From Acidipropionibacterium virtanenii (GTDB lineage Bacteria; Actinomycetota; Actinomycetes; Propionibacteriales; Propionibacteriaceae), in the NCBI RefSeq assembly GCF_003325455.1, contig NZ_CP025198.1, positions 2,356,001 through 2,420,000 of the forward strand: DNA of 64,000 nt. The letters are read 5' to 3'. Made by a program: the position numbers and the translations under genes. The notes under the pieces are model-generated. The model saw nothing but the letters and a program-made list of their open reading frames with translations, was not told the DNA's origin and did no database searches. Within the stretch, counting starts at the first letter, position 1; the number at the start of each line of letters is the position of its first letter. This document shows positions 8,690 through 23,108 of the stretch, piece after piece.

Positions 8690-10750
8690 TCACCTGGCGA
8701 GGACCCTGCCCGCCACCTCGACGACGTGCTCGGGGGTGATGCCGAACTCCTCGAAGCACCTGGCCCCGGCGGCCGAGGCGCCGAAGTGCTCGATGGAGAC
8801 CGAGTCGCCGGCGAAACCGACGTACTTCGACCAGCCCATGGAGATGCCGGCCTCGACGGAGACGCGGGCGGTGACGGCCGAGGGCAGCACCGACTCCCTG
8901 TACTCATCGTCCTGGGCGTCGAACCACTCCTGGCACGGCATCGAGACCACGCGGGTCGGGGTTCCGGCCTTCTCCAGCTGCTTCTGCGCCTCCAGGGCGA
9001 CCCCCACCTCGGAGCCGGTGGCGATGAGGATCAGCTTCGGATCGGCACTGGCCTCCGCCAGCACGTAGGCGCCCTTGGCGACTCCCTCGGCCGAGGCGTG
9101 GACGCTGCGGTCGACGGTCGGCAGATCCTGGCGCGACAGCACGAGGCCGGCCGGACGGTCGGTGTGCTCCAGAACGGTGCGCCATGCGACCGCGGTCTCG
9201 TTGGCGTCGGCGGGACGCACGACGTCCAGCCCCGGGATGGCCCGGCAGGCCGCCAGATGCTCGATCGGCTGGTGGGTGGGGCCGTCCTCGCCGACGCCCA
9301 CGGAGTCGTGGGTCCACACGAAGATGCTGGGAATCTTCATGAGGGCGGCCAGACGCACCGACGGGCGCATGTAGTCGGAGAACACGAAGAAAGTGCCTCC
9401 GTAGGGACGGGTCAGCCCCGACAGGGTGATGCCGTTGACGATGCCGCCCATCGCGTGCTCGCGGATGCCGAAGTGCATCGTGCGGCCGTAGGGGCCTCCC
9501 GGGTACTCCTCGACGACGCGATCGGCCGGCAGGAAGGAATCGGCCCCCTTCATGGTGGTGTTGTTGGACCCTGCCAGGTCGGCCGAACCGCCCCACAGCT
9601 CCGGCAGCTGCGGGCCCAGCGCGCTCAGCACCGCACCCGAGGCCTTGCGGGTGCTCATCTTGCCAGGCTCGAAGGTCGGCAGCTCCAGGCTCTCGGGCAG
9701 CTTGCGGGCGCGAATCCGGTCGAGCAGCGCGGCGCCCTCCGGGTTGGCCTCCTGCCAGGCCGCGAAGGACTTGTCCCAGGCGGCACGATTCGCCTTGCCG
9801 CGCTCGGCGGCCGCGGCGCGGGTGGCCTTGACCACGGCGTCATCGATGGCGAAGGGGGTGTCCTCGAAGCCGAGGACCTTCTTCAGCGCCGAGATCTCCT
9901 CGCCACCCAGCTTGGAGCCGTGCACCGACTCAGAACCCTGCTTGTTGGGCAGCGGCCAGCCGATGACGGTGGTGACCTTGATGAAGGAGGGCTTGTCGGT
10001 GACGGCCTTGGCCGCCTCGACGGCGTCGGCCAGGGCCTGGACGTCCTCCTTGTACTCGGTGCCGCCCTGGGTGAAGTCGACCGTCTGGACGTGCCAGCCG
10101 TAGGCCTCGTAGCGGGCGCAGACATCCTCGGTGAAGGCGATGTTGGTGTCGCCCTCGATGGTGATGCGGTTGTCGTCGTAGAACAGGATGAGGTTGCCCA
10201 GCTCCTGGGTGCCAGCCAGCGAGGAGGCCTCCGAGGAGATCCCCTCCTGCAGGCAGCCGTCGCCGGCGATCGAGTAGACGTAGTGATCGAAGGGGCTGGT
10301 GCCGGCGGGAGCATCGGGATCCAGCAGACCGCGCTCCTTGCGGGCGGCCATGGCCATGCCGACGGCATTCGAGATGCCGGCGCCCAGCGGGCCGGTGGTG
10401 GTCTCGACGAACCGCGTGTGGCCGTACTCGGGGTGTCCGGGGGTCAGCGAGCCCCAGGTGCGCAGGGACTCGAGATCCTCGATCTCAAGCCCCAGCCCGG
10501 CCAGGAAGAGCTCGGTGTACTGGGTCAGCGAGGAGTGTCCCGCCGACATCACGAAGCGGTCGCGGCCCAGCCAGTGCTCGTCGGCCGGGTCGATCTTCAT
10601 CTCCTTCTGGTACAGCAGGTAGGCCAGAGGAGCCAGCGAGATCGCAGTCCCGGGGTGGCCGTTGCCCACCTTCTCCACGGCGTCCGCGGCCAGCACCCGT
10701 GCCGTGTCAACGGCCCTGACGTCGGTCTCGTTCCATTCCAGTTCAGCCAC
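8690..10750 (-). CDS. tkt: Transketolase
   Basis: Thiamine-diphosphate enzyme of the pentose phosphate pathway, moving two-carbon units between sugar phosphates; erythrose 4-phosphate is one of its standard acceptors. Of 686 residues, GHPGTA lies at 31-36 and the TPP-binding motif runs from GDGCLQEG at 163-170 to N194. The central pyrimidine domain (GIREHAMGGIVNG) and the C-terminal domain are complete. I choose the GTG at 10750 as start because AGGA precedes it by 7 bases and the family starts there; a longer frame exists upstream. The gene follows the polyol kinase/dehydrogenase run after a hairpin at 10867-10898, so it may be partly uncoupled from it. It could be the housekeeping copy or a locus-specific sink. 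Confidence 0.96.
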   Translation of the reverse strand: MAELEWNETDVRAVDTARVLAADAVEKVGNGHPGTAISLAPLAYLLYQKEMKIDPADEHWLGRDRFVMSAGHSSLTQYTELFLAGLGLEIEDLESLRTWGSLTPGHPEYGHTRFVETTTGPLGAGISNAVGMAMAARKERGLLDPDAPAGTSPFDHYVYSIAGDGCLQEGISSEASSLAGTQELGNLILFYDDNRITIEGDTNIAFTEDVCARYEAYGWHVQTVDFTQGGTEYKEDVQALADAVEAAKAVTDKPSFIKVTTVIGWPLPNKQGSESVHGSKLGGEEISALKKVLGFEDTPFAIDDAVVKATRAAAAERGKANRAAWDKSFAAWQEANPEGAALLDRIRARKLPESLELPTFEPGKMSTRKASGAVLSALGPQLPELWGGSADLAGSNNTTMKGADSFLPADRVVEEYPGGPYGRTMHFGIREHAMGGIVNGITLSGLTRPYGGTFFVFSDYMRPSVRLAALMKIPSIFVWTHDSVGVGEDGPTHQPIEHLAACRAIPGLDVVRPADANETAVAWRTVLEHTDRPAGLVLSRQDLPTVDRSVHASAEGVAKGAYVLAEASADPKLILIATGSEVGVALEAQKQLEKAGTPTRVVSMPCQEWFDAQDDEYRESVLPSAVTARVSVEAGISMGWSKYVGFAGDSVSIEHFGASAAGARCFEEFGITPEHVVEVAGRVLAR

Positions 10751-10866
10751 TGTGTGTCCTCTCATTGATACCCCGGTCGGGGGCAGATACGGGCCGTCTC
10801 TCGAGCCCATCGAGGGCGCGATGCTCAAGGATGAGCCTACAAATACAGTCGTGGTCGGGTTCCCCG

Positions 10867-10898
10867 GGGCCCGCCGGTCCCTACCGACAGGCGGGCCC
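10867..10898 (-). terminator. GC hairpin between araB-like kinase and transketolase
   Basis: A perfect 9-base stem GGGCCCGCC/GGCGGGCCC with a 14-base loop, 12 bases past the araB-like stop on the minus strand. It may terminate or attenuate the transcript before transketolase. Confidence 0.55.
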
Positions 10899-10910
10899 AG
10901 GGGCGGGTTC

Positions 10911-12644
10911 TCACGTCTCGGGGATCCAGGCGTCCTCCGAATGGTCGCCCTGGCGACGCAACAGCGGGCCGGCCTTCCTCTCGGCCCGGATGTGGGCCTC
11001 GCGACGCAGCTCCTTGAGTCGGTGCATCACCGGGTTGGCGCCGCGGCCGAAGTAGTCGTGCAGGGTCGTGTACTCGGCGAACAGTGGGTCGTAGAGCCTG
11101 GCACGCTCCTCGTCGACCTGGTAGACGCCCTCCTCCTTGGCTCCCATCGCCGCCGAGGCCGCCTTGACGTCGGGGTAGACGCCGGCTGCCACGGCGCCGA
11201 AGACCGCGGACCCACGGGCTCCGGGCTGCTGGGTGAGGCCCACGGACAGCGGCACCCGGCAGATATCGCAGAGCAGCTGCATGAGGAAGGTGTTCTTCGT
11301 CAGGCCACCGGCCACGATGAGCTCGTTGATCGCCACGCCCGCATTGCGGAAGGACTCGATGATGGTGCGCGCGCCGAAGGCGGTGGATTCCAGCAGCGCC
11401 CGGTACTGGTCCTCCGGGGTGGTGGTGAGCGCCTGCCCGATGAGCAGGCCCGACAGGTTGGCGTCGGCCAGCACCGAACGGTTGCCGTTGTGCCAGTCCA
11501 GCCCGATCAGACCGTGCGCCCCGACCTCCTGGTCCTGGCACTTCTCGGTCAGCAGCTCGTGCAGGCTGATGGCGCGGCGCTCGGCCTCGTCGGCGTACGA
11601 CTTCGGCACGCAGTTGTCGATGAACCAGGCGAAGATGTCGCCGACGGCGGTCTGCCCCGCCTCGAACCCCCAGGAGCCGTCGACGATGCCGCCGTCGACC
11701 ACCCCGAACATGCCGGGGACCTCCTTGAGCTCCGGGCCCGGCACGATGTAGCAGGCGGAGGTGCCCAGGATCGCGGTCATCTGACCGTTCTCGACGGCCT
11801 GGATGGCGGCCGCGGTGACGTGCGCGTCGATATTGCCCGACGCCACGGCGATGCCCTCGGGCAGCCCGAGACGGGCAGCGAAGTCGGCGGTGAGGCCACC
11901 CACCCGTCCACCCAGGGGCAGCACCGGGGCGTCCATCTTCGTCTCGAAGACGTCCTCGAACTCGGGGTTGAGGTTGCGCAGGAACTCACGTGACGGGTAC
12001 TGGCCGTCCTGGTACATCCGCTTGTAGCCGGAGTCGCCGGCGGCGAAGGTCAGCTCGCCGGTGAGCTGCCAGGTGAGCCAGTCCAGGGCGTCGCAGAAGA
12101 CGTCGGTGGCCTCGTAGACGCGCGGCGCCCATTCCAGGGTCTCCAGCACCTTCGGCATCAGCATCTCCGAGGAGAGGATGCCGCCGTAGCGGGCCAGCCA
12201 GGGCTCGCGTCGGGCCTGGGCCAGCTTGACGATCCGGTCGGCCTGGTCCTGGGCGCCGTGGTGCTTCCACAGCTTCACCCAGGCGTGCGGCTCATCGGCG
12301 TAGTCCTCCAGGAGGCACAGCGGCGTGCCGTCGGACCTGCAGGCGATGACCGTCGCCGAGGTGACGTCCAGGCCGATGCCGATGACGTCCGAGGGGTCGA
12401 TCGCGGCGTCCTTGAGGGCGCCGGGGATGATGTGCTCCAGGGTCTCGATGTAGTCGGCCGGGGACTGGAGCGCGAAGTCGGGTGGAAGCTTCTGATTGTC
12501 CGCCGCGGTGAGTGTGCGATCCATCACCGCATGCGGATACTCGTAGACGTCGGTCCCCATCTCAGCGCCGTCGCTGACGCGCACCACCAGGGCGCGTCCG
12601 GAAAGAGTGCCGTAGTCGAGGCCGATCACATACTTGTCTGACAT
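10911..12644 (-). CDS. araB: AraB-type FGGY kinase (ribulokinase family)
   Basis: A 577-residue sugar/polyol kinase. The N-terminal phosphate loop DYGTLSGRALV at residues 10-20 and the following VYEYPHAV are signatures of the L-ribulokinase branch of the FGGY family, and the C-terminal ATP domain has GGLTKNTFLMQ. Family knowledge: AraB enzymes phosphorylate 2-ketopentoses, and some also accept ribitol and L-arabitol. No arabinose isomerase (araA) or ribulose-phosphate epimerase (araD) lies in the window, so a role in ordinary arabinose catabolism is doubtful. It sits between an AraM-like dehydrogenase and transketolase, with hairpins on both sides. The start ATG at 12644 has AGG 9 bases upstream. 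The symbol describes the family, not a proven substrate. Confidence 0.85.
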   Translation of the reverse strand: MSDKYVIGLDYGTLSGRALVVRVSDGAEMGTDVYEYPHAVMDRTLTAADNQKLPPDFALQSPADYIETLEHIIPGALKDAAIDPSDVIGIGLDVTSATVIACRSDGTPLCLLEDYADEPHAWVKLWKHHGAQDQADRIVKLAQARREPWLARYGGILSSEMLMPKVLETLEWAPRVYEATDVFCDALDWLTWQLTGELTFAAGDSGYKRMYQDGQYPSREFLRNLNPEFEDVFETKMDAPVLPLGGRVGGLTADFAARLGLPEGIAVASGNIDAHVTAAAIQAVENGQMTAILGTSACYIVPGPELKEVPGMFGVVDGGIVDGSWGFEAGQTAVGDIFAWFIDNCVPKSYADEAERRAISLHELLTEKCQDQEVGAHGLIGLDWHNGNRSVLADANLSGLLIGQALTTTPEDQYRALLESTAFGARTIIESFRNAGVAINELIVAGGLTKNTFLMQLLCDICRVPLSVGLTQQPGARGSAVFGAVAAGVYPDVKAASAAMGAKEEGVYQVDEERARLYDPLFAEYTTLHDYFGRGANPVMHRLKELRREAHIRAERKAGPLLRRQGDHSEDAWIPET

Positions 12645-12707
12645 CTGGTTCTACCTACTTCGTCGTAAGGGGATGCGGGTTGATTCTCCCACTGATCTGA
12701 ACCGGAC

Positions 12708-12742
12708 GCCGTGGGGAAGGGGCCGCGCCCCTTCCCCACGGC
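12708..12742 (-). terminator. Very stable 16-bp hairpin between araM-like and araB-like genes
   Basis: A perfect 16-base stem GCCGTGGGGAAGGGGC with a 3-base loop, 18 bases past the araM-like stop on the minus strand. No T-run follows. It may be a terminator, an attenuator or an RNA-stability element that sets relative expression of the two cistrons. Confidence 0.65.
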
Positions 12743-12760
12743 ATCCCGTTCATCTCGGGA

Positions 12761-14122
12761 TCAGTCGGTCCAGGGACGCTTGGCCCAGAACCCGTCGCCG
12801 ACGAACAGCTTGTCGACCTCATCCTGGAGAACACCTGTCTCCAGCAGGAAGTCCAGCAGGGTGTAACGGGAGCGGATCATCTGGCAGCGGATGTAGGTCT
12901 CGTGGAAGCGCTGCTCGGTGACCCCGATCTGGCTCGGGTGGTAGACGCCGCCGACCTGCTTGAGGATCTCCTCGACCTGCGCGGCGGGCATCACCTGCTC
13001 GGCGCACCGCTTCTGGATCGAGGGCCACTTCTGGCGCACCAGCTCGAGGCGCTCGCGCAACTGCTCGGCGGTGATGTACTTGTCCATCGTCTGCTTGACG
13101 GCGGGCTCCAGCATGTCACCGGTGAAGTTGCGTCGGACCTTCGCCTCCATCTCCTCGGCCGACGGCCACTTGGCCACCGCCGCGTCGATGTCGAGCCGGC
13201 TGAAGTCGATCTCGAGGATCTTCTCCCACAGGGCCAGCACCGCGATGGTGCCCATGCCGACCTTCATGCCGTGGGTCAGCGGCGGCTCGCGGTCCATGCC
13301 CAGCTTCTCCATCTCCCAGGTGTGGGAGAACTGGTGGCCGGCACCGGAGGCCGGACGCGAGCTGATGCGGTACTTCTGCATCGACAGACCGGACATCACC
13401 AGGCCCTCGACCAGGCCTTCCAGGGCCTCGGGCTTGCCGGTGGCCAGCCCCTCGGGATCGGAGATGGCCTTGGGCAGCGGGCCCTGGACCAGGTCCCAGA
13501 CCTCCTGGTCGATGGCCTCGATGCCCAGCTCGTCGGCGATGATCCAGTCCGCACCGGCCGGCACCTTCTCGATGAGGTCGCCCAAGCCGGTGGCGGTGCA
13601 GCGCTGGGGCGCTGCGGCCATCGTCGGCAGGTCGGCGATCAGGGCCTGCGGGGCCCGGCAGCTCATGGTGTGCTTGAAGCCGTTCTCGGTGATGGAGGAG
13701 CCGAAGGCGGCGTAGCCGTCCATCGAGGCGGCGGTGCAGACGTTCATGTAGCGACGGCCCAGCTCGTCGGAGGCGCGCTTGGTGAGGTCGTTGAGGGTGC
13801 CCGAGCCGATCGAGCAGGCGATCACGCCGTCGAGCGGAGCCAGATGGTCGCGGATCTTCTCGACGTTGTCGTAGTCGGCGTACACGGTCGGGTGCGCGGG
13901 AAACAGCATCGGATCGACGAGCTCGACGCCGGCCGCCTCGAGGGATGCGACCACAGCATCGCCGGCCACCTCCCAGGTGTTGCCGTCGGCGATCACGATG
14001 CCCTTGGCATCGCCGAACAGTTTCTTGAACACCTCCCCGGTCTGATCCAGGACGCCGTGTCCCATGACCACGACGTCGGTGTCGTCGGAGTCGGCCAGGG
14101 CCTTCTCGATGAGTTCGGACAT
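12761..14122 (-). CDS. AraM/glycerol-1-phosphate dehydrogenase-family polyol-phosphate dehydrogenase
   Basis: A 453-residue NAD(P)-dependent dehydrogenase of the AraM/EgsA/GldA superfamily. The dinucleotide site is GSGTLND at 106-112, and the metal ligands are visible as D182 (GLGD), H263 with H267 (GAGHQFSHTWEM) and H284 (PLTHG). B. subtilis AraM, encoded in the arabinose operon, oxidises sn-glycerol 1-phosphate. This protein is about 60 residues longer, mainly at the C-terminus. Between two FGGY kinases and beside an AraL-type phosphatase and an RpiB isomerase, it probably oxidises a polyol phosphate (erythritol phosphate or a pentitol phosphate) to the ketose phosphate. True glycerol-1-phosphate activity remains possible. 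The ATG at 14122 has AGGA 6 bases upstream. Confidence 0.85.
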   Translation of the reverse strand: MSELIEKALADSDDTDVVVMGHGVLDQTGEVFKKLFGDAKGIVIADGNTWEVAGDAVVASLEAAGVELVDPMLFPAHPTVYADYDNVEKIRDHLAPLDGVIACSIGSGTLNDLTKRASDELGRRYMNVCTAASMDGYAAFGSSITENGFKHTMSCRAPQALIADLPTMAAAPQRCTATGLGDLIEKVPAGADWIIADELGIEAIDQEVWDLVQGPLPKAISDPEGLATGKPEALEGLVEGLVMSGLSMQKYRISSRPASGAGHQFSHTWEMEKLGMDREPPLTHGMKVGMGTIAVLALWEKILEIDFSRLDIDAAVAKWPSAEEMEAKVRRNFTGDMLEPAVKQTMDKYITAEQLRERLELVRQKWPSIQKRCAEQVMPAAQVEEILKQVGGVYHPSQIGVTEQRFHETYIRCQMIRSRYTLLDFLLETGVLQDEVDKLFVGDGFWAKRPWTD

Positions 14123-14158
14123 TTCTTTCCTCTCGTTGAAGCGAAGAATGTACGTGGG

Positions 14159-14192
14159 TTCCCGGGGCCCGTCCTGGGACGGGCCCCGGGAA
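14159..14192 (-). terminator. 15-bp hairpin between FGGY kinase and araM-like gene
   Basis: A perfect 15-base stem TTCCCGGGGCCCGTC with a 4-base loop, 11 bases past the FGGY kinase stop and 36 bases before the next start. It is the third strong intercistronic hairpin of this run and may tune expression rather than end transcription. Confidence 0.6.
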
Positions 14193-14203
14193 TCGTGACG
14201 GGG

Positions 14204-15766
14204 TCAGTGCTTGGCGGCCTCGTGGTCGACGACCTCGTGGATCAGCTCCTGCATCAGCGGGAACGACCGCATGTACTTGTCGAGGTAGAACTGGTACTGC
14301 TCGTGAGCCTCCTGGTCGGGCTCGATCAGATCGATCTCATGCACCATATTCGCACCGGCCTCCGGGAGATCCTTGTACAGACCCGCGCCGACGGCGGCGA
14401 TCATGCAGGTGCCCAGGACGACCGCGTCGCCCACCTCGGTGAGCGCGATCGGCACACCGGTGACGTCGGAGTGCATCTGCATCCAGTCGCGGCTCTTGGT
14501 GGATCCGCCGCAGGCGACCATCTTCTCCACGTTGACGCCGGCCGTCTCGAAGGCCTTGACCGAGTGCCCGATGCCGAAGCAGACGGCCTCCTGGATGGCG
14601 TGGTAGACGTGCGCCGGCGTGTGGGCCAACGACAGTCCCCACATGATGCCGCGCGCCTTGGAGTCGGTGTAGGGGGTGCGGTTGCCCTGGAAGTACTCGT
14701 TGACGATCAGCCCGTCGGATCCGATCGGGATGTTGCGGGACTGCTCGTTGAGCACGTCGTAGGGGTTGAGCCCGACCTTCTCGGCAGCCGCGACGACGTC
14801 GGAGGCGAAGTTGTCCTTGAACCACTTGAGCACCGAGCCGGTGGAGACACCCGATCCCTCGACGGTGAACTGCCCGGGGACCACCGCGTCGGTGTAGGAG
14901 CCCCAGAAGCCCTCTCCGTGGATCTCGGTGTCGCTCTGGCCCGAGAGCACATGGGAGGAGCCGGTGATGAGGGCGAACTTGCCGGGGCTCAGCACGCCGA
15001 GGCCGATCTGGCCGGCCCATGCGTCGCCCGGTCCCTGCGCGACGGGGATGCCGGGCCGCAGCCCGAGCAGCTGGGCCGGGATGGAGCCGAGGGTCCCGAC
15101 CTGCTCGCCGAGGTTGACGACACGGTCGGGAACCTTCTCGAACAGGTCGCCGGCCCCCACGGTCTCGTAGAAGTCGGCGGGCCAGCCGCCCTGGGCGCGG
15201 TTGTAGTAGGAGCGGATCGAGTGGGTGTTGATGTTGGCGGTCCACTCGCCGGTGAGTTTGTAGGTCAGCCAGTCGGCGGCGTCGACGATGTGGGCGGCGC
15301 GGGCGTAGTTCTCCGGCTCGTTCTCACGCAGCCAGGCGGCCTTGAAGGGGAAGTTCTCCGCGGGGGCCGCGCCCTTGCCGCCGTTGTTCATGAGGCGGGC
15401 GACCGAGTCGGACTGCTCGGCGCGGGCGGCCTGCTTGGTCGCACGGTTGTCCATCCACATGATGGCCGGGCGGATCGACTCGCCCTTGGCGTCCAGGGTC
15501 ACCATCGTGAAGGTGGTGGCGTCGTAGGAGATGCCGGCGATGGCGGCCGGCGAGATCCCGGCGTTGGCGATGGCCCGGTGCGAGGAGGCCTGGAGGGCCT
15601 TCCACCACTCGTCGGGATCCTGCTCGGCCCAGCCCGGGTGCGGGAAGGCCGTCTTGTAGGGGGTCGCTGCGAAGGTCAGCGGCCGGCCCTGGAGGTCGAA
15701 GATGGCCACGCGGCACGACTCCGTGCCGTAGTCGATTCCGAGGACGTAGGGTCCGTTGTCAATCAT
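14204..15766 (-). CDS. FGGY-family carbohydrate/polyol kinase
   Basis: A 520-residue kinase with the N-terminal FGGY motif GIDYGTESCRVAIFD at residues 10-24, the PGWAEQDPDEWW segment common in xylulokinase- and polyol-kinase-like members, and the C-terminal adenosine motif GGSTKSRDWMQ. It is clearly a different subfamily from the AraB-type kinase two genes away. From context it likely phosphorylates the imported polyol, supplying the AraM-like dehydrogenase. The role is analogous to erythritol kinase EryA of Brucella, but the sequence is not close to EryA. The ATG at 15766 is preceded by AAGGAG about 11 bases upstream. Erythritol, ribitol and arabitol are all possible substrates. Confidence 0.85.
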   Translation of the reverse strand: MIDNGPYVLGIDYGTESCRVAIFDLQGRPLTFAATPYKTAFPHPGWAEQDPDEWWKALQASSHRAIANAGISPAAIAGISYDATTFTMVTLDAKGESIRPAIMWMDNRATKQAARAEQSDSVARLMNNGGKGAAPAENFPFKAAWLRENEPENYARAAHIVDAADWLTYKLTGEWTANINTHSIRSYYNRAQGGWPADFYETVGAGDLFEKVPDRVVNLGEQVGTLGSIPAQLLGLRPGIPVAQGPGDAWAGQIGLGVLSPGKFALITGSSHVLSGQSDTEIHGEGFWGSYTDAVVPGQFTVEGSGVSTGSVLKWFKDNFASDVVAAAEKVGLNPYDVLNEQSRNIPIGSDGLIVNEYFQGNRTPYTDSKARGIMWGLSLAHTPAHVYHAIQEAVCFGIGHSVKAFETAGVNVEKMVACGGSTKSRDWMQMHSDVTGVPIALTEVGDAVVLGTCMIAAVGAGLYKDLPEAGANMVHEIDLIEPDQEAHEQYQFYLDKYMRSFPLMQELIHEVVDHEAAKH

Positions 15767-15819: not shown

Positions 15820-16674
15820 TCAGTCGTCGTTCTCGGTCCATCCGAGCTCGGCCCACGCCGATGCGGGGATGAGCCTGTCGATGCGGTCGAGCACCCAGGT
15901 GGGCCGGTGGGCGTCATCCAGGGAGCTGATGTCGTCGGCGGTGGCCTCGCCCGTGAGCACGCAGGCCGACCCCATGCCGGTGTCCAGAGCCATCTGGATA
16001 TCGGTCGCCAGCCGGTCGCCGACCATCACGCAGTGTGCGACGTCGACGTCCAGCCCGGCGAGCGCCGCCGTCAGCATGACCGGTGAGGGCTTGCCGAAGT
16101 TCACCTGGCAGGTGGTGCCGGTGCAGGCCTCGATGGCGGCGGTCATCGCCGCGCAGTCGGGCTCGCCACGGCCGCCGGGGAAGGGGCAGAAACGATCCGG
16201 ATTGGTCTGGACCAGGAAGGCCCGCTTGTGGAACCAGATCGCGTCGAAGGCGATCTGAAGTTTGCGGTAGTCGAAACCGCGGTCATAGGAGGAGACGACG
16301 ATGTCGATCTCCTCGGGGTCCTCCGACAGGGCGATACCGGCCTGACGGAGGCTGTTCTTGAGGGGCTCCTCCGCGATGGCGAAGACCTTGGCGTCGGGAT
16401 GATTCTCCTTGATCCAGTTGGTCGTCGTCACCACGGTGTTCGAGATGTCGGAGATATCGGTGGGCAGGCCCAGTTTCTCCAGCTTCTCGACGTACTGCTG
16501 CGGATCCTTGGTCGGGTTGTTCGACAGGAAGCGCACCGGGATCCCCCGCCGACGCAGTTCCTCAATCAGTCGCTTGGCCCCCGGCAGCAGGTGGTCACCG
16601 AGGTAGATGGTGCCGTCCATGTCGAAGACATAGGCCTGCTGGAAATCGGTGGGCGCCTTCACGATGTCATTCAT
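15820..16674 (-). CDS. HAD-IIA sugar phosphatase, AraL/NagD type
   Basis: A 284-residue haloacid-dehalogenase-type phosphatase of subclass IIA. Visible motifs: VFDMDGTIYLG near residue 17 (nucleophile and acid Asp), LSNNPTKD (motif II), the lysine of GKPSPVML (motif III) and MVGDRLATDI (motif IV). AraL of B. subtilis, in the same operon as AraM, is a promiscuous sugar phosphatase thought to relieve sugar-phosphate stress. The same AraL-AraM pairing here suggests a safety valve for accumulated polyol or ketose phosphate. The start ATG at 16674 follows GGAGAA by 6 bases. The frame is open much further upstream, but that part overlaps the permease gene. Confidence 0.85.
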   Translation of the reverse strand: MNDIVKAPTDFQQAYVFDMDGTIYLGDHLLPGAKRLIEELRRRGIPVRFLSNNPTKDPQQYVEKLEKLGLPTDISDISNTVVTTTNWIKENHPDAKVFAIAEEPLKNSLRQAGIALSEDPEEIDIVVSSYDRGFDYRKLQIAFDAIWFHKRAFLVQTNPDRFCPFPGGRGEPDCAAMTAAIEACTGTTCQVNFGKPSPVMLTAALAGLDVDVAHCVMVGDRLATDIQMALDTGMGSACVLTGEATADDISSLDDAHRPTWVLDRIDRLIPASAWAELGWTENDD

Positions 16675-16712: not shown

Positions 16713-17780
16713 TCAGGACAGCAGCGCGGCCAGGGAGACCACGATGGTGTTCGAGATCCAGATGGCGGCGGCCGGCGGGTCGATGTGGCTGGTGCCGCGG
16801 TTGTACCAGAGGCGGGCGGCCAACTCGGCGAAGGCGGCGGCCATGATGCCGAAGACACCCGCGATCAGCAGGGCCACGAAAGCCATCAGCCAGGCGTGCG
16901 AGTTCCAGGTGGCGACCGATGTCCATGCGAAGGAGGCGCCCATCACGATCGGGTAGAACTGGATGGCTCCCAGCCCAGCGGTGATCGTCACATGGTGCTG
17001 CACCGGCATATTCCGGTTCGTGATGAGGAACAGGATGATGACGGCCGAGATGCCGAAGGCGAAGCTGTTCCCCTTGCTCGCGGCCAGGTCGTTCGCGAGG
17101 CCCATCTTGGTGAAGTGGGCACCGACCTCGGAGGCCAGCATGAGTGACACGAAGCCGGCGAAGATGCCGAAGAGCGAACCGATCGCCAGCAGCTGGCCAG
17201 GCTTCTCCTGCCACTCGAGCCAGCGACCGTTGGGGCCGGGCTTGATCTTGGCGGGGAAGGAGGTGGCGTCCTCATGGAAGAGTTCCGGGTTGTGCAGCGA
17301 TCCGGTGAACAGCTGCTTCTTCAGCCCGCCGAAGACCCAGCGGGCGGTCAGACCGGAGATGAGGACGGTCAGGGCCACCGAGTCGGTGTGTGCGCCGAAC
17401 CAGGGGATGTTCGAGATGCCGATCTGGACGACATAGCCGAACACGCCGAACAGGGAGCCGATCAGCAGAACGTCGGGCTTGCCCAGGCCGGCCAGCGGCG
17501 TGTTCACGTCCTTGCCGTCGGTCATGTAGCTCTTGTAGGTGGCGTAGATCGAGCCGGCCACACCACCGGCGAAGGCCACATGAGGCCCGAAGAAGGGTCC
17601 GAAGGCCAGGTAGTCGAGTCCGAAGGAGTTCCCGGTGGCGGCGAACATGCCCCAGGAGGCCAGAACCATGAAACCGGTCATGACGAATGCATAGTTACCG
17701 CCGATAGCGGCGCCGACGGCGCCTCCGGCGATCGCGGCGAGGAGTCCGAACAGGAAGACTCCCAGCGAAGCTGTGAACAT
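16713..17780 (-). CDS. Unrecognised multi-pass membrane protein; candidate polyol permease
   Basis: A 355-residue protein with about ten hydrophobic segments and no domain I recognise. Glycine-rich helices open the protein (GLLAAIAGGAVGAAIGG). A soluble loop of about 40 residues around 165-205 contains Trp and Pro and divides the protein into halves that both contain a similar LLxIGSLFGxFxG segment (about residues 105 and 205), hinting at an internal duplication. It is not an MFS, PTS, ABC, SSS, MIP or TRAP component by eye. Inside a catabolic run that has no other transporter, uptake of the substrate polyol is the most economical role, but this is inference. The ATG at 17780 has AAGGAA 5 bases upstream. 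Confidence 0.7.
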   Translation of the reverse strand: MFTASLGVFLFGLLAAIAGGAVGAAIGGNYAFVMTGFMVLASWGMFAATGNSFGLDYLAFGPFFGPHVAFAGGVAGSIYATYKSYMTDGKDVNTPLAGLGKPDVLLIGSLFGVFGYVVQIGISNIPWFGAHTDSVALTVLISGLTARWVFGGLKKQLFTGSLHNPELFHEDATSFPAKIKPGPNGRWLEWQEKPGQLLAIGSLFGIFAGFVSLMLASEVGAHFTKMGLANDLAASKGNSFAFGISAVIILFLITNRNMPVQHHVTITAGLGAIQFYPIVMGASFAWTSVATWNSHAWLMAFVALLIAGVFGIMAAAFAELAARLWYNRGTSHIDPPAAAIWISNTIVVSLAALLS

Positions 17781-17904
17781 CAGTGTTCCTTGTGGTCGGG
17801 CGGGCTGGTGCCCGCTTGCGTATGTGATGCCATCGGCGCTGCGCCGAGGCGGGGTGCTCCCGGGCCCGACCCTGGAATGGGGACGGGCTCGGGATTGCCT
17901 CGCG

Positions 17905-17977
17905 TCGCACCCGGTTCGGGAGGTCGCGAGGCCAGGTCCCGGCCTGAGCCGGGTCCCGGTCCTGGAATCGGGTGCGA
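17905..17977 (-). other. Nested inverted-repeat element, possible structured RNA
   Basis: Three nested exact stems lie between rpiB and the permease: TCGCACCCG (17905-17913) with CGGGTGCGA (17969-17977), CCAGG (17932-17936) with CCTGG (17961-17965), and CCCGGC (17938-17943) with GCCGGG (17948-17953) around a CTGA loop. A competing pairing, CCTCGCG with CGCGAGG, overlaps the outer stem. On the minus strand this would form in the leader of the permease cistron. It could be an attenuator or processing site. No known riboswitch class is recognised. Confidence 0.4.
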
Positions 17978-17979
17978 GA

Positions 17980-18001
17980 ACGGCGCGGTGAGCGGCGCCG
18001 T
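17980..18001 (-). terminator. Small hairpin after rpiB
   Basis: A 7-base stem ACGGCGC/GCGCCGT with an 8-base loop, about 16 bases beyond the rpiB stop on the minus strand. It adjoins the larger nested element at 17905-17977. Confidence 0.4.
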
Positions 18002-18017
18002 CTCCCCCCGTGAGGGG

Positions 18018-18509
18018 TCAGCAGCCCGTGGCCGCTTCCTCTCCGGTACCCGCCGACTCGGCCTCGAGCTTCTCGATGAGGTCGACGTTGCCCTTCGAGT
18101 GAGAGGACGGGTCGAAGGTGTAGTTGAGGAACTCCTTGGCGAGGCGCCTGGCCAGCTCACGTCCGATGACGCGCTCGCCCAGGCACAGCACGTGCGCGTC
18201 GTTCGACATGACGAGGCGCTCCACCGAGAAGCTGTCATGGGCGGTGCAGGCCCGGATACCCGGCACTTTGTTGGCCGAGATGGCCATTCCCATTCCCGTG
18301 CCGCAGATGAAGATGCCGCGATCGGCCCTGCCCTCGGCGATGGTCTTGGCCCCTGCGAAACCGACATGCGGGTAGGCGGTGTCCTCGCCGGGCGTGATGC
18401 CGACGTCGATCACCTCGTCCACCCTCGGATCGGCCTCCAGATCAGCCTTGATGGCCTCCTTGTAGCCCACTCCGGCCGGATCGCCGGCAACCACGATTCT
18501 GAATCCCAT
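18018..18509 (-). CDS. RpiB/LacAB-family sugar-phosphate isomerase
   Basis: A 163-residue isomerase of the RpiB family, which interconverts ketose and aldose phosphates. The catalytic cysteine is C69 in FICGTGMGM, and a conserved histidine is H48 in TAYPHVG. The family includes ribose-5-phosphate isomerase B and the D-erythrulose-4-phosphate isomerases EryI/DerI of tetritol pathways. Context (DAK-type kinase, AraM-like dehydrogenase, transketolase) favours conversion of erythrulose 4-phosphate to erythrose 4-phosphate, but ribulose 5-phosphate cannot be excluded. The start ATG at 18509 has GGAGGA 5 bases upstream; an in-frame extension above it lacks a good site. It is the first structural gene downstream of the DeoR regulator. 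Confidence 0.88.
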   Translation of the reverse strand: MGFRIVVAGDPAGVGYKEAIKADLEADPRVDEVIDVGITPGEDTAYPHVGFAGAKTIAEGRADRGIFICGTGMGMAISANKVPGIRACTAHDSFSVERLVMSNDAHVLCLGERVIGRELARRLAKEFLNYTFDPSSHSKGNVDLIEKLEAESAGTGEEAATGC

Positions 18510-18612
18510 GTCTCCTCCGAGCTTCCTTGCGATCGGGATGGGAGATGTGCCCGTCAGGGACACTCGCCCTCTTGCCGTGTCTAAAACTAACACAGTTGAT
18601 GACAGAATCACC

Positions 18613-18629
18613 ATCATCAGTGTGATGAT
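18613..18629. promoter_or_regulatory. Candidate DeoR operator
   Basis: A perfect 7-base inverted repeat ATCATCA-GTG-TGATGAT in the 150-base space between the regulator gene and rpiB, in a locally AT-rich stretch that also looks promoter-like. Position suits control of the polyol operon by the DeoR protein encoded just upstream. Confidence 0.55.
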
Positions 18630-18659
18630 TTGCTCGGTCGTGTGTGACGTCCGCCCCGA

Positions 18660-19475
18660 TCATCCCCGCGTCCCCGCCACCGTGACCTGAACCCCGGTGT
18701 CGCGAAGGTGATCCAGCATCGCCGGGGAGGACTGATCGTCGACCACCACATGGTCGAACTCCTGCAGTTCGGCGAATTTGAACAGCGCACGCCGGTTGAA
18801 CTTGGTGTGATCCAGCAGCAGCACCCTCACCTCGGCGGACTCGATCATCGCGCGTTTGACCTCGACCACCTCCTGATAGGGGTGGTAGCACCCGAGTTCG
18901 AAGATGCCGGAAGCTGACACGAAGCAGAAGTCAGCGTGCATCGAACGGATGGTGCGCACCGCGGCGGCACCCATCAGGGAGTGCGCCCAGGCCTGGTACT
19001 CGCCCCCGCTCACCAGCAGCTTGGCTCCACGGCAGGGGGCCACCTCGTCGGCCACCAGCAGCGAGTTGGTGACCACCGTCACCGAGGACAGGTCGGGCAG
19101 CGATCGCAGCAGCCACACCCCCGATGTGGAGTCGTCCAGCATGATCGAGGATCCGGGGCTGATGAGCTTGCCCGCCTCGGCGGCGACCAGCTGCTTCTCC
19201 GCCGAGCTCTGCTCCAGACGGAACTCGGCGTCGGCCTCGTGCAGTCCGCTGGCCACCGCGACCACCTGGCCGCGATGCCGGGTGAGCACGCCACTGTCCT
19301 CCAGGGCCGCCAGGTCCCGGTAGACGGTCATCGCCGAGACCCCGGTCAGCGCGACCAGATCCTCGACGCTGGCCGAGCCGTTGCGGATCACCGACTCGGC
19401 GATGGTGAGTTGCCGGCTCCTCGGGCCGTCCTGGCCGTGGCGCGACGACGCGGAATCGGCGCTACTCGTAACCAT
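18660..19475 (-). CDS. DeoR/GlpR-family transcriptional regulator
   Basis: A 271-residue regulator with an N-terminal DeoR helix-turn-helix (SRQLTIAESVIRNGSASVEDL, then ALTGVSAMTVYRDLAALEDSG) and a C-terminal sugar-phosphate sensor domain of the phosphosugar-isomerase-like fold (LDDSTSGVWLLRSL, then VVTNSLLVADEV). DeoR proteins usually repress catabolic operons and are released by a phosphorylated pathway intermediate. It is encoded on the same strand directly upstream of rpiB and thus probably controls the polyol locus, perhaps sensing erythrulose or erythritol phosphate. Start at the ATG 19475, with AGGAGG 7 bases upstream; a longer frame to 19499 is less likely. Its 5' side faces the divergent phosphoribosyltransferase gene. 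Confidence 0.9.
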   Translation of the reverse strand: MVTSSADSASSRHGQDGPRSRQLTIAESVIRNGSASVEDLVALTGVSAMTVYRDLAALEDSGVLTRHRGQVVAVASGLHEADAEFRLEQSSAEKQLVAAEAGKLISPGSSIMLDDSTSGVWLLRSLPDLSSVTVVTNSLLVADEVAPCRGAKLLVSGGEYQAWAHSLMGAAAVRTIRSMHADFCFVSASGIFELGCYHPYQEVVEVKRAMIESAEVRVLLLDHTKFNRRALFKFAELQEFDHVVVDDQSSPAMLDHLRDTGVQVTVAGTRG

Positions 19476-19593
19476 GAGTCTGCCTCCTGAATCTGACACT
19501 GCGACACTCCCGGACTACCCCATCGGGACCGGACCGGTCGACCCGCCTCCTCCGGCGGGACGACCGCCCGACGAGGCTCGGTAAGGTGTGCCC

Positions 19594-20097
19594 ATGACCG
19601 CTTATCACGCCGATTCCTCGGACCTCGCAGAAAAAGAGGTCCTCACCTGGGAGCAGTTCGGAACAGCTCAGGAGGAGCTCGCCCAGCAGATCGCGGACTC
19701 CGGATTCCATCCGGAGGTCCTCATCGCGATCGCCCGGGGAGGAATGATCCCCGGTGGCGCGCTCACCTACTCCCTGGGAGTCAAGCTGACCGACGCCATC
19801 AACGTCGAGTTCTACACCGACGTCAACGAGACCCTGGCCGATCCGGTACTGCTGGCCCCGATGCTCGACACCGAGTACATCAAGGGCCGCAGGATCCTGG
19901 TGGTCGACGACGTGGCGGACTCCGGCCGCACCCTGGCCCTCGTGCTCAAGCTGCTGCGCGGATTCGGCGCCGAGGTGCGCTCGGCGGTGCTCTACACCAA
20001 GCCGCGAACCGTCGTGAAGCCCGACTACCAGTGGAAGACGGTCGACAGCTGGATCGTCTTCCCCTGGAGCGCCAAGCCTCCGGTCACCGCGAACTGA
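19594..20097 (+). CDS. Phosphoribosyltransferase (purine/xanthine-guanine type)
   Basis: A 167-residue type I phosphoribosyltransferase. The PRPP-binding motif is RILVVDDVADSGRTL near residues 103-117, with the family's early loop VLIAIARGGMIPGG near residue 45. Such small proteins salvage hypoxanthine, guanine or xanthine as nucleotides; the exact base is unclear. The start ATG at 19594 has AAGG 7 bases upstream; a GTG two codons earlier is an alternative. It stands alone on the plus strand between the DeoR gene and the kinase gene, so it seems not to belong to the polyol system. Confidence 0.85.
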   Translation: MTAYHADSSDLAEKEVLTWEQFGTAQEELAQQIADSGFHPEVLIAIARGGMIPGGALTYSLGVKLTDAINVEFYTDVNETLADPVLLAPMLDTEYIKGRRILVVDDVADSGRTLALVLKLLRGFGAEVRSAVLYTKPRTVVKPDYQWKTVDSWIVFPWSAKPPVTAN

Positions 20098-20139
20098 CAG
20101 CATCGCTGAGCACACCCCCGTCTCCCCTGCCCCGCCGTA

Positions 20140-21840
20140 TCAGCCGATGACGCTGCCGACGGCCCGCACCACGTCCACGAAGGAGATGGCGCCGGGGTCG
20201 GGGGTCCCCAGCGACTTCTCACCGAGCGGTCGGGAGCGCCCCAGTCTCGCCACGATGTCGGCCGTGGAGCGGGCGCCGGCCTCGGCGGCCAGCACTGCGG
20301 CCCCCCAGGCCGTGGGCAGGTCGGCGGCCGATCCCCGCAGGGTCTCGACGAAGGGCTCCATGGCGTCGATCATCGTCTTGTCGCCGCGCTGGGCCCCGCC
20401 CAGCCGCTTGACCGCGTCCAGCGACGCGGCGGCGGCCTCCACGACGAGGCCGGGACGACATCCCTCCTGATCGCCGAGCACGCTGCCGAAGGCGGTCAGC
20501 GCCGCCCCCCACAGGGCCCCGGAGGTGCCACCGGCCTGCTCGGACCATGCCGCCCCGGCAGCGGCCAGGGTGGTGAGCGCACCGGCGCCCTTGGCGGCGA
20601 CGGCCCTGGCGGCCTCGACGCCGGCGGTGGACCCGCGCGACATCCCGATCCCGTGGTCGCCGTCACCGGCGATCGAGTCCAGGCGTCCGAGCTCGTCCTG
20701 GCGCTCGAGAAGGACGTCGTGGATGAGGTCCAGCGCCTCGACGACGGTGGAGGCGACATCCTGGGAGGCCGGGCCGCCCGGATCCTCCACGGTGACCGCC
20801 TCGGCCTGCTGGGAGAGTTCTGTGGTGTCCAGCTCGACGGCGCCGACGGCTCCGCGGCGGTAGGCCGGGGTGTCGCAGGGGGCGAGCCACAGTGGTTCGA
20901 TGACGTCGTCGAGCCACACCAGGGTCAGCGACAGGCCCGCCATGTCGAGGCTGGTGACGAACTCGCCGACCTGCGGGTCGACGATCTCCAGGCCGGCCTC
21001 CGCCAGGAGTCGGCGGATGTCGTTCCAGATGACGAAGAGCTCCTCGTACTTGGTGTCCCCCAGGCCGTTGACGATCGGCACCACCCGGGTACCGGCGTCC
21101 TCGGGGCGATCGGCGAGCAGCCCGTCGACGAGCAGCCCCGCGAGGTCGTCGGCGGTGCCCAGATCGGCGTCGTGGATGCCCGGCTCCCCGTGGATGCCCA
21201 TGCCCACGCCCATCCGGCCCTCGGTCACCTTGAACAAGGGCTCGTCGGCGCCCGGCAGGGTGCATCCCTGGAAGGCGACGCCGAAGGAGCGGGTGCGGTG
21301 ATTGACCCGGTTGAAGATCTGCTCGACCTCGTCGATGCTCATCCCGGCCTCGCAGGCCGCACCGGTCACCTTGAAGGTGGGCAGGTCGCCGGCGATGCCG
21401 CGCCGCTTGGGAAGCTCGTCGGGACCGGCGGAGGCGATGTCGTCGGTGACCAGGAGGCAGCGTGCCTCGATCCCCTCCGCCTTGAGCCGCTCGGCCGCCT
21501 GGCCGAACTGCAGCACGTCCCCGGCGTAGTTGCCGAAGCCGATGAGGACGCCGGCGCCGCGGTCGGCGGCCTTGCAGACCGAATAGGCCTGGGCGCCCGA
21601 CGGGGAGGAGAAGATGTTGCCGCAGACAGCCCCGTCGGCGAATCCCTGACCGACCCAGCCGGCGAAGGCCGGGTAGTGGCCGGAGCCCCCGCCCACCACC
21701 AGTGCGACCTTTCCCTGAGGGGTGGCGGTGGCGCGGGCCACGCCGCCGAAGACGGGTTTCAGGTGGTTCGGGAAGGCGCTGGCCAGCCCTGCCACCGCCT
21801 GAGCCGGGAAATCATCGGGGTCGTTGAGCACTCGGGTCAT
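20140..21840 (-). CDS. DAK-family ketose kinase (DhaK-DhaL fusion), probable erythrulose or dihydroxyacetone kinase
   Basis: A 566-residue ATP-dependent kinase with an N-terminal DhaK domain and a C-terminal DhaL domain in one chain. DhaK shows GGGSGH at 50-55 and the substrate-binding histidine H217 in GMGIHGEPG. DhaL, from about residue 355, shows the Mg-ATP motif GDGDHG at 392-397. The family phosphorylates dihydroxyacetone, and members in mycobacterial tetritol pathways (LerK, DerK) phosphorylate L- or D-erythrulose. A divergent zinc dehydrogenase next door would supply the ketose, and the RpiB isomerase and transketolase nearby would use the product, so erythrulose is favoured here. Dihydroxyacetone kinase is the main alternative. 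The ATG at 21840 has GGAG 9 bases upstream. Confidence 0.88.
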   Translation of the reverse strand: MTRVLNDPDDFPAQAVAGLASAFPNHLKPVFGGVARATATPQGKVALVVGGGSGHYPAFAGWVGQGFADGAVCGNIFSSPSGAQAYSVCKAADRGAGVLIGFGNYAGDVLQFGQAAERLKAEGIEARCLLVTDDIASAGPDELPKRRGIAGDLPTFKVTGAACEAGMSIDEVEQIFNRVNHRTRSFGVAFQGCTLPGADEPLFKVTEGRMGVGMGIHGEPGIHDADLGTADDLAGLLVDGLLADRPEDAGTRVVPIVNGLGDTKYEELFVIWNDIRRLLAEAGLEIVDPQVGEFVTSLDMAGLSLTLVWLDDVIEPLWLAPCDTPAYRRGAVGAVELDTTELSQQAEAVTVEDPGGPASQDVASTVVEALDLIHDVLLERQDELGRLDSIAGDGDHGIGMSRGSTAGVEAARAVAAKGAGALTTLAAAGAAWSEQAGGTSGALWGAALTAFGSVLGDQEGCRPGLVVEAAAASLDAVKRLGGAQRGDKTMIDAMEPFVETLRGSAADLPTAWGAAVLAAEAGARSTADIVARLGRSRPLGEKSLGTPDPGAISFVDVVRAVGSVIG

Positions 21841-21855
21841 CTGCGTCCACTCCTG

Positions 21856-21887
21856 TGTGTGAAATCTCCGCTGTGTGAAAACTCCGC
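21856..21887. repeat. Tandem 16-bp repeat in divergent promoter region
   Basis: Two adjacent copies of TGTGTGAAATCTCCGC (the second has A for T at position 10) lie 16-47 bases upstream of the DAK-kinase start. A partial inverse, TTTTCACA, occurs about 60 bases further on, before the divergent dehydrogenase gene. The arrangement suits a regulator that binds repeated half-sites. Confidence 0.5.
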
Positions 21888-22040
21888 GCAGCGTCCAGGT
21901 TCCCGATCACCAACCCTGGTGAATCTTAACGTCGGACGCTAACATTTTCACATCAAATCATGAGAAGTTCGGTTGGACAAGTGGGTCCCGTCTGGACCTC
22001 ACACGGAGCATCGACGATGCTGACGAGGAAGGATCACCGC

Positions 22041-23108
22041 ATGACCTCAACAATGCCGGCCCTCACGCTGCGCGGCCCCGGGGACGTCGCTCTCACCGAC
22101 AAGCCGGTCCCCGAGCCGGGCCCCGGCGAGGTGCTGCTGGCCGTCGAGGCGACCACCATCTGCGGTACCGACCTGCGCCTCATCTCCGGGCAGAAGACCA
22201 GCGGGGTGCGCTACGGGGCCACCCTCGGTCATGAGGTGGCCGGGCGGATCGCCGCGATCGGCGAGGGCGTCACCGACCTGCCCACCGGCGCGAACCTGCG
22301 GGTGGGCCAGCAGGCCACCGTCTCGATCGTGGTCTCCTGCGGCACCTGCCGGGCCTGCCTGGCGGGGCGGGAGCACCTGTGCACCTCGATGGAGCTGGTC
22401 GGCTACGCGATCGACGGCGGCCTGGCGCCGTACCTGCTGGTGCCGGCCCGGGCGGTGGCCCGAGGCAACGTCATCCCGGTGCCGGCCGAGATCCCGGCGA
22501 ACCGTCTGGCGATCGCCGAGCCGATGTCCTGCGTCCTCAACGGGCACCGCCGTCACGGCGGAGTCAATCCCGGTGAGACCGTCGTGGTGATCGGCGGGGG
22601 CCCGATCGGCCTGCTGCACACCCAGCTCAACCTGGCCAGCGGCGCCGCCCAGGTGATCCTGTCGGAGAACAACGAGTCAAGGCGGGCATCGGGTGCCGAG
22701 CTCGGCGCCGTCACCACCGCCCCCGACCAGCTCGAGGCGGTGCTCGCCGAGCGGACCGAGGGCTGGGGGGCCGACGTCGTCGTGGTGGCCATCGGGCTGC
22801 CCTTCCTGGCCCAGACCTCACTCTCCCTGGCCGCCCCTGGGGGTCGGGTGAGCTGGTTCGCCGGGTTCCCGAAGGATGCCACCGCCGAGGTCGATCCGAA
22901 CACGGTCCACTACGGCGAGGTCACCGTCTCCGGCGGCTCCAACGCCCGCCGGGCCGACGTCCACGACGCCGTGCGCCTGCTCTCGCGCGGCGTCATCGAC
23001 GAGAGGCCGATCGTCACCCACACCTTCGGCCTGTCGGAGTGGGAGTCGGCGATCGACGCCGTGAAGAATCACGTGGGCGTCAAGATCGCCATCGACCCCA
23101 CCCGCTGA
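22041..23108 (+). CDS. Zinc-dependent medium-chain alcohol/polyol dehydrogenase
   Basis: A 355-residue medium-chain dehydrogenase. Catalytic zinc ligands are C41 (TTICGTDLR) and H64-E65 (LGHEVAG), and the structural zinc is held by C100, C103, C106 and C114. The NAD-binding motif is VIGGGPIGLLH near residue 180. The family includes threonine, sorbitol and erythritol/threitol dehydrogenases. Divergent from the DAK-type kinase with a shared promoter region, it probably oxidises a free polyol such as erythritol or threitol to the ketose. The start at 22041 is set by GAGGAAGGA 7 bases upstream; the frame is open to 21960 without a site. Butanediol or other secondary alcohols are possible substrates. 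Confidence 0.88.
   Translation: MTSTMPALTLRGPGDVALTDKPVPEPGPGEVLLAVEATTICGTDLRLISGQKTSGVRYGATLGHEVAGRIAAIGEGVTDLPTGANLRVGQQATVSIVVSCGTCRACLAGREHLCTSMELVGYAIDGGLAPYLLVPARAVARGNVIPVPAEIPANRLAIAEPMSCVLNGHRRHGGVNPGETVVVIGGGPIGLLHTQLNLASGAAQVILSENNESRRASGAELGAVTTAPDQLEAVLAERTEGWGADVVVVAIGLPFLAQTSLSLAAPGGRVSWFAGFPKDATAEVDPNTVHYGEVTVSGGSNARRADVHDAVRLLSRGVIDERPIVTHTFGLSEWESAIDAVKNHVGVKIAIDPTR

Follow-up and report, generated by a model that had tools for sequence, protein, structure and literature searches.

A conserved putative operon with two kinases and one AraM-like dehydrogenase: a candidate erythritol and pentitol pathway of propionic acid bacteria

Which genes allow propionic acid bacteria to ferment erythritol? 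The trait is regular among dairy propionibacteria and was studied in the 1960s, and according to the available text of PMC4437456 it was genetically unexplained in Propionibacterium freudenreichii in 2015. The locus considered here lies in a stretch of 64,000 nucleotides from Acidipropionibacterium virtanenii (contig NZ_CP025198.1, positions 2,356,001 to 2,420,000), referred to as the window. It contains genes for a DeoR-family regulator, an RpiB-family isomerase, a membrane protein, a HAD phosphatase, an FGGY kinase, an AraM-like dehydrogenase, an AraB-type kinase and a transketolase (Table 1). All eight are on the minus strand and probably form one operon. An earlier sequence-only reading had placed a polyol-catabolism locus here, and open reading frames (ORFs) and family searches find every gene type it named where it had put them. 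The evidence below makes it reasonably likely that this is a DeoR-controlled polyol operon in which two kinases share one dehydrogenase, with a tetritol branch and a pentitol branch.

The phenotypes agree with such a role. According to a table footnote in PMC6920887, all Acidipropionibacterium strains tested are positive for erythritol, adonitol, D-arabitol and L-arabitol (nine strain columns, two measured in that study and the others cited). For Propionibacterium freudenreichii, the part of PMC4437456 available reports fermentation of erythritol and adonitol by 21 of 21 strains, of L-arabitol by 11 of 21 and of D-arabitol by none of 21. Its authors could not reconstruct the erythritol and adonitol pathways, and they assigned to L-arabinose an araB-araB-araM-araL locus found in all strains studied. 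Because gene content and approximate position agree, that locus is probably the operon described here. Among the listed matches of open-access full-text literature searches, none assigns these genes to erythritol. P. pentosaceum, the organism of the 1960s erythritol biochemistry, now falls under A. acidipropionici.

This set of eight genes is present, in unchanged order, in 5 of 5 Acidipropionibacterium genomes (G000 to G004), in a Cutibacterium metagenome-assembled genome (MAG; G016), in Cutibacterium avidum and in P. freudenreichii (G083); the clustering far exceeds chance because this order recurs across all of them. Gene by gene, the A. acidipropionici operon is 85-98% identical to that of the window. 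The AraM gene of G003, a MAG, is broken across two frames, a gap of about 1.5 kb separates deoR from rpiB in P. freudenreichii, and P. australiense and P. acidifaciens carry shortened versions of the cluster. Orthologs of the FGGY kinase, of a rival kinase (FGGY547k2, see below), of a neighboring DAK-type kinase and of the transketolase were counted in 10 chosen genomes, and the FGGY kinase is present in all 10. From rpiB onward the intergenic gaps are 38-237 bases with corrected starts, the start codons of the operon genes having been assigned by reading the sequence. The DeoR-family protein is likely the local repressor. At the aligned place of the candidate operator, GTGTTA is found in 8 of 9 upstream regions and ATGTTA in the ninth; in C. 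avidum the candidate operator is an exact inverted repeat.

The division of labor within the operon can be read from the company that its genes keep elsewhere. Starting from the best 80 of 499 AraM-like relatives in named genomes, 54 loci with enough flank were counted; the other 26 had a flank shorter than 4 kb or an AraM ORF that was not located (L133 and L135 are named), and matches below set identity or score limits were left uncounted. RpiB is near 32 of the 40 loci with an FGGY kinase and 1 of the 14 without (p = 2e-6), and the HAD gene is near 40 of 40 and 4 of 14, respectively (p = 4e-8). A homolog of L-ribulose-5-phosphate 4-epimerase is near 19 of the 35 loci with AraB and none of the 19 without (p = 4e-5). 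There is no association of AraB with RpiB (p = 0.39) or of FGGY with the epimerase (p = 0.1). The membrane protein gene is present in 36 of the 54 loci (34/40 with FGGY, 2/14 without), and the transketolase accompanies FGGY in 16/40 against 0/14 (p = 0.005). Redundancy was checked by keeping one representative per 65% AraM cluster, which leaves 13 loci, two of them still Acidipropionibacterium. Among these, FGGY pairs with RpiB in 7/8 against 0/5 (p = 0.005) and with HAD in 8/8 against 0/5 (p = 0.0008), and AraB pairs with the epimerase in 4/6 against 0/7 (p = 0.021) and shows no association with RpiB (p = 0.59). RpiB and HAD go with the FGGY kinase, the epimerase goes with AraB, and the AraM-like enzyme goes with both kinases. 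On the strength of these pairings the FGGY kinase is placed in an RpiB/HAD branch and AraB in an epimerase branch.

The isomerase points the first branch toward a tetritol. The NCBIfam model for D-erythrulose-4-phosphate isomerase (DerI) gives 143 bits to the operon RpiB and 63 to its canonical counterpart in this genome. An alignment of 27 RpiB-family sequences (C. avidum counted twice; one of the 18 named loci asked for, L071, gave none) shows an Asp-His motif near the N-terminus in two canonical sequences, those of the window genome and of S. meliloti. The remaining 25, which include the operon RpiB and that of R. leguminosarum, are without this His, and they share SN-[ND] at the position of HND or HDD in the canonical pair. 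The operon protein also lacks the canonical C-terminal Arg pattern, which the other RpiB of the genome has together with the Asp-His motif. From its locus context (L150) we take the R. leguminosarum protein to be EryI. The operon RpiB is probably a D-erythrulose-4-phosphate isomerase of the EryI/DerI type. Its partner kinase belongs to a clade of 26 rows (support 99/97) that neighbors the AraB clade and does not include EryA, in a tree of 57 proteins from 19 named loci and of own-genome, Rubrobacter, rhizobial and propionibacterial origin. EryA, for which the R. leguminosarum kinase was taken by context, is a long branch in this tree, and its exact place is unsure. As stated in the accessible part of PMC3245297, EryA is found only in Alphaproteobacteria. 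The FGGY kinase is probably an erythritol kinase and perhaps a ribitol kinase as well.

Were ribitol the main substrate, the FGGY kinase would yield D-ribitol 5-phosphate, which the AraM-like enzyme would turn into D-ribulose 5-phosphate and RpiB would then isomerize to ribose 5-phosphate. Such a scheme has in its favor that adonitol is fermented by the same species, that ribitol is configured like erythritol at the carbons involved and that D-ribulose 5-phosphate belongs to the RpiB substrate class. It is nevertheless unlikely, given that the operon RpiB has the EryI pattern and not the canonical His and C-terminal Arg (as judged against two canonical sequences), that a separate canonical RpiB is encoded in the genome and that HAD tracks the FGGY branch.

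The AraM-like protein has a sn-glycerol-1-phosphate (G1P) dehydrogenase as its best relative in the PDB (E = 1e-33). D182, H263 and H284, presumably the metal ligands, are invariant in 16 of 16 sequences and agree with the Asp/His/His pattern of the family. An ordinary G1P dehydrogenase, joined by a glycerol kinase variant of the FGGY type in a glycerol pathway, would fit the nearest solved relatives; yet the protein misses the NCBIfam G1P dehydrogenase equivalog widely (159 bits against a cut-off of 413), a standard GlpK is encoded elsewhere in the genome (751 and 713 bits, over both cut-offs), and glycerol use needs no RpiB, AraB or epimerase. This makes a glycerol operon most improbable. 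Enzymes of the G1P dehydrogenase family use glycerol phosphate of the D configuration, which D-erythritol 4-phosphate matches at C2; the GlpD-like EryB uses the mirror-image phosphate. The AraM-like enzyme is probably a polyol-phosphate dehydrogenase that serves both kinases. No viral relatives of it were found.

A second AraM-like dehydrogenase (48% identical) is encoded in A. virtanenii itself (L042; G000:C1:1434-1443 kb), together with glucitol-type phosphotransferase system (PTS) subunits, a GutM-like protein and an antiterminator-like regulator. Of these matches, PTS IIBC exceeds its cut-off; IIA and GutM do not reach theirs. Because this paralog adjoins a glucitol-type IIBC, its setting suggests a polyol phosphate as the class of substrate.

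AraB passes two curated ribulokinase models (713.4 bits against a cut-off of 428 and 682.9 against 583.25). It is assigned to a pentitol branch because its partner in other genomes is L-ribulose-5-phosphate 4-epimerase, and it is probably both an L-ribulokinase and a pentitol kinase, leading the pentitol to xylulose 5-phosphate. In A. jensenii and A. thoenii the epimerase gene is inside the operon, between araB and the transketolase gene. The products score 342 and 349 bits with the subfamily model (cut-off 251) and remain under the stricter araD equivalog (134 against 389). The A. virtanenii operon has no epimerase gene; the epimerase of this genome is beside araA, away from the operon, and scores alike (368 and 146). 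No epimerase was found in the operon stretches of C. avidum, G016, genome G070 or P. freudenreichii, and in G098, of the Cutibacterium genus, the interval from rpiB to deoR contains a partial match (43%, 168 residues).

These data also bear on whether the locus is an accessory L-arabinose operon, as the 2015 annotation of P. freudenreichii (araB, araB, araM, araL) would have it. The ribulokinase scores fit, the FGGY genes of the window genome yielded no second ribulokinase, and AraA and the epimerase adjoin elsewhere in it. However, L-arabinose isomerase (AraA) is found only in A. virtanenii and A. acidipropionici, two of the five genus genomes (one of the three without it is a MAG, 86% complete), though the operon is in all five. 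None was found in A. jensenii or A. thoenii, which carry operon and epimerase. The accessible portion of PMC6920887 lists A. thoenii and three strains of A. jensenii, including DSM 20535 (the genome examined), as L-arabinose negative, and A. virtanenii and A. acidipropionici as positive. Because AraA was not found and the strains do not use L-arabinose, the operon AraB and epimerase of A. jensenii and A. thoenii cannot serve L-arabinose via AraA; L-arabitol and adonitol are still fermented. In P. freudenreichii the locus is in all strains studied, yet L-arabinose use varies (PMC4437456, as far as its text was available). An L-arabinose operon is therefore very unlikely.

The HAD protein is nearest to the phosphoglycolate-phosphatase type (PGP_euk, 143 bits with a longer ORF as query, under the cut-off). 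Pho13 and PGP belong to the HAD-IIA type. Phosphatases such as yeast Pho13 remove 4-phosphoerythronate, which arises from erythrose 4-phosphate (PMC6449344, in the part seen). Because HAD strictly tracks the FGGY branch, this analogy suggests a metabolite repair role in which the enzyme would clear a 4-phosphoerythronate-like by-product. The membrane protein has no match to a Pfam or NCBIfam family or to a PDB sequence. Its AlphaFold model is of high predicted quality (predicted local distance difference test, pLDDT, 92.2; predicted template modeling score, pTM, 0.91) and finds no PDB fold at E ≤ 0.001 (best E 0.023, TM-scores ≤0.26 among the 50 matches listed). Its halves are weakly similar to each other (hhalign probability 17.7). 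The alignment of the protein omits L077 and L078 of the 39 found. Because the operon has no other transporter, the protein may be the polyol importer, either a transporter or a facilitator.

From gene content, conservation, pairings, residue signatures and the match with phenotype we infer all substrates of the following scheme. Substrate would enter through the membrane protein. In the tetritol branch the FGGY kinase would convert erythritol to erythritol phosphate, the AraM-like enzyme would use NAD(P) to oxidize this at C2, giving D-erythrulose 4-phosphate, and RpiB would isomerize the product to D-erythrose 4-phosphate, from which transketolase would feed glycolysis. The phosphate required is D-erythritol 4-phosphate, the enantiomer of the one that serves Brucella and Rhizobium, and because of this neither EryB nor EryC would be needed. 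In the pentitol branch AraB would phosphorylate L-arabitol, ribitol or both, the same dehydrogenase would yield L-ribulose 5-phosphate, and the 4-epimerase would supply transketolase with D-xylulose 5-phosphate; A. virtanenii would draw this epimerase from its separate araD-araA locus. The HAD enzyme may clear 4-phosphoerythronate or another side product of erythrose 4-phosphate. Taken as a whole, we offer only tentatively that this is the erythritol and pentitol pathway of propionic acid bacteria, running through a mirror-image phosphate, with an AraM-type enzyme that serves several kinases (and in its paralog a PTS), a repair phosphatase of its own and an importer family with no named relative or solved fold.

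Several points weigh against this reading. The polyol taken by each kinase is not fixed by sequence, and the FGGY kinase could act on ribitol too. The kin of the dehydrogenase are glycerol-1-phosphate dehydrogenases. Both the operon RpiB and the canonical one stay under the DerI cut-off of 240 bits, and the residue pattern of the operon RpiB recurs in a rhizobial apionate locus, so it marks a non-canonical isomerase and not erythritol specifically. The operon transketolase is the housekeeping one: it is the sole full-length copy found in the genome, for which reason its role as a dedicated polyol enzyme was rejected, and no second full-length copy was found in the 10 genomes checked. Its pairing with FGGY is no longer significant in the 13 representatives (p = 0.23). 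The 54 loci are mutually related, and apart from the 13-cluster check their p-values carry no correction. AraB may also serve L-arabinose in A. virtanenii because no other ribulokinase was found there. Use of L-arabitol varies among P. freudenreichii strains despite the universal locus, so either L-arabitol needs more than this locus or it is not an AraB substrate in that species. Finally, a 1968 paper on P. pentosaceum concerns, by its title, L-erythrulose 1-phosphate, and the accessible part of PMC10733421 mentions that an enzyme cleaving this compound was suggested for erythritol use in P. pentosaceum. Such a route differs from the proposed scheme, which lacks that intermediate.

Table 1. 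Features of the operon and its neighborhood (window coordinates).
Feature	Position	Strand	Basis
Transketolase	8690..10765	-	TIGR00232, 769 bits
AraB-type kinase	10911..12644	-	Two ribulokinase models passed (713 and 683 bits)
AraM-like metal-dependent dehydrogenase	12761..14122	-	Fe-ADH_2 match
FGGY kinase of a separate clade	14204..15766	-	Under every equivalog cut-off; own clade in tree
HAD-IIA phosphatase (AraL/PGP type)	15820..16674	-	HAD-IIA, 109.5 bits, over cut-off
Membrane protein, unnamed family	16713..17780	-	No Pfam or NCBIfam match
RpiB-family isomerase, probable EryI/DerI type	18018..18509	-	DerI model, 143 bits; EryI-type residues
Candidate operator/promoter ahead of rpiB, GTGTTAGTTTTAGACAC	18577..18593	-	Conserved GTGTTA at aligned place
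DeoR-family regulator	18660..19475	-	DeoRC, 144 bits, and HTH_DeoR; heads the syntenic block
Phosphoribosyltransferase-like gene, boundary outside the operon	19588..20097	+	Identity by reading the sequence
Single-chain DAK-type kinase	20140..21840	-	Dak1 and Dak2; PRK14479, 719 bits
Zinc-type alcohol dehydrogenase, divergent	21960..23108	+	NCBIfam matches all far under cut-off

Does the neighborhood beyond deoR supply a second route? The sequence-only reading had an FGGY/AraM route and a zinc dehydrogenase/DAK route converge on erythrulose 4-phosphate, and it gave AraB no role. Its polyol locus with an FGGY route that phosphorylates and then oxidizes, an AraM-type enzyme in place of EryB and RpiB leading to erythrose 4-phosphate is supported as a prediction from the genes; the second route did not stand as it was put. 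An opposed phosphoribosyltransferase-like gene lies between the DeoR and DAK genes, and DAK and the zinc dehydrogenase are placed outside the operon because it intervenes. This gene is kept in the five Acidipropionibacterium genomes, and the whole arrangement with DAK and zinc dehydrogenase is kept in Acidipropionibacterium and G070. It is not beside the operon in the three Cutibacterium-genus genomes (G016, G098 and G109, the last being C. avidum), in which DAK, present in 10 of 10 genomes, is remote from the operon. DAK is close to it in G070 and in P. freudenreichii, where the gene (53% identical) is about 0.9 kb beyond deoR. In Trueperella (L080, L105) the cluster has DAK and this zinc dehydrogenase close by, two Rubrobacter plasmid operons contain DAK and a different zinc dehydrogenase, and a mycobacterial EltD/DerK/DerI pathway exists. 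These favor a converging route. However, the zinc dehydrogenase has no family call, and within 7 kb of AraM DAK is found in 6 of the 54 loci and the zinc dehydrogenase in 2, a radius too short for the zinc dehydrogenase of the window itself, which is 7.8 kb away. We regard two converging routes as improbable, and DAK and the zinc dehydrogenase are accessory at most.

Past the other end of the operon, a DUF222 protein (7093-8544; 26.8 bits, cut-off 24.4) adjoins the transketolase end, and pntA and pntB, for NAD(P) transhydrogenase, lie at 1177-4158, as they likewise do in A. jensenii, A. thoenii and G070. They could serve redox balancing during polyol use.

Other loci were considered for the same function. 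Locus L059 (G000:C1:544-553k), for a polyol or a sugar, encodes a pair of FGGY kinases, aldolases of the FucA-like and DhnA types, and a zinc dehydrogenase. It was rejected as the erythritol locus: its second kinase, FGGY547k2, joins EryA on long branches in the tree, and just 2 of 10 genomes have it, that of the window and, as an ortholog, that of A. acidipropionici (90%). The sole class-II aldolase gene of A. jensenii is the operon epimerase, which also counts against L059. The RpiB relatives H34 (apionate locus), H36 and H49 were set aside as ery loci since their stretches have no EryA-type kinase; that of H40 had one. Away from the operon (L060:7267-8910; G000:C1:637 kb), the genome encodes a further FGGY kinase that shares 83% identity with the one in the operon and is changed in the stretch around the presumed catalytic Asp. 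In G098 an in-frame stop divides the FGGY gene into two open frames (L172:10454-12097) and the remaining operon genes appear intact; the ortholog count gave two stops there, but its query carried a 30-residue stretch ahead of the true start. Erythritol fermentation differs among C. acnes biotypes, as reported in the accessible part of PMC2924382.

For a trait studied by biochemistry in the 1960s, this analysis names candidate genes, indicates that they were likely mis-assigned and gives each kinase one branch. If the scheme is true, AraM-like enzymes, several of them now annotated as glycerol-1-phosphate dehydrogenases, would gain a new function, and the membrane protein would be a candidate for a new family of polyol transporters.

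Among the closest known systems are two Rubrobacter plasmid operons (NZ_CP031116 and NZ_CP007516; L062, L063), which carry HAD (62-64%), AraM-like (49-51%), RpiB (41%) and FGGY (49-51%) genes in one run. They differ in including a DAK gene and a zinc dehydrogenase that more closely resembles a different zinc dehydrogenase of the window genome, and no AraB, membrane protein or transketolase matches were found in the stretch read. In each, the FGGY kinases number two or three and belong to the same clade, alongside one or two AraM-like genes. The Bacillus subtilis ara operon likewise unites homologous AraB, AraL (HAD-IIA) and AraM families. In contrast to it, the operon described here has no AraA, has FGGY, RpiB, DeoR, transketolase and membrane protein genes added and occurs also in species that do not ferment L-arabinose.

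With the mycobacterial EltD/DerK/DerI system the operon shares a putative RpiB-family D-erythrulose-4-phosphate isomerase and, as neighbors, a DAK kinase and a zinc dehydrogenase, families whose likeness to DerK and EltD is judged at the family level. There oxidation comes first; here the DAK and zinc dehydrogenase genes lie outside the operon. EltD, LerK, LerI and DerI are described in PMC10733421, in the part available.

The Rhizobium and Brucella EryA/B/C/H/I systems share the order of events proposed here: an FGGY-fold kinase acts first, the phosphate is oxidized and an RpiB-family isomerase gives erythrose 4-phosphate. R. leguminosarum L150, whose FGGY kinase, G3P dehydrogenase and TIM barrel genes we take by context to be ery genes, also has a DeoR-family regulator two genes before RpiB. 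The operon differs in that its kinase belongs to an FGGY clade other than EryA, an AraM-like dehydrogenase stands in place of the GlpD-like EryB, and the opposite enantiomer of erythritol phosphate is probably used; no GlpD-like FAD dehydrogenase and no EryC- or TIM-type isomerase is found among the operon ORFs. As in the S. meliloti locus for erythritol, adonitol and L-arabitol (PMC3599248, in the part seen), one locus would serve a tetritol and two pentitols. EryA alone takes all three there, whereas two kinases and one dehydrogenase are proposed to do so here.

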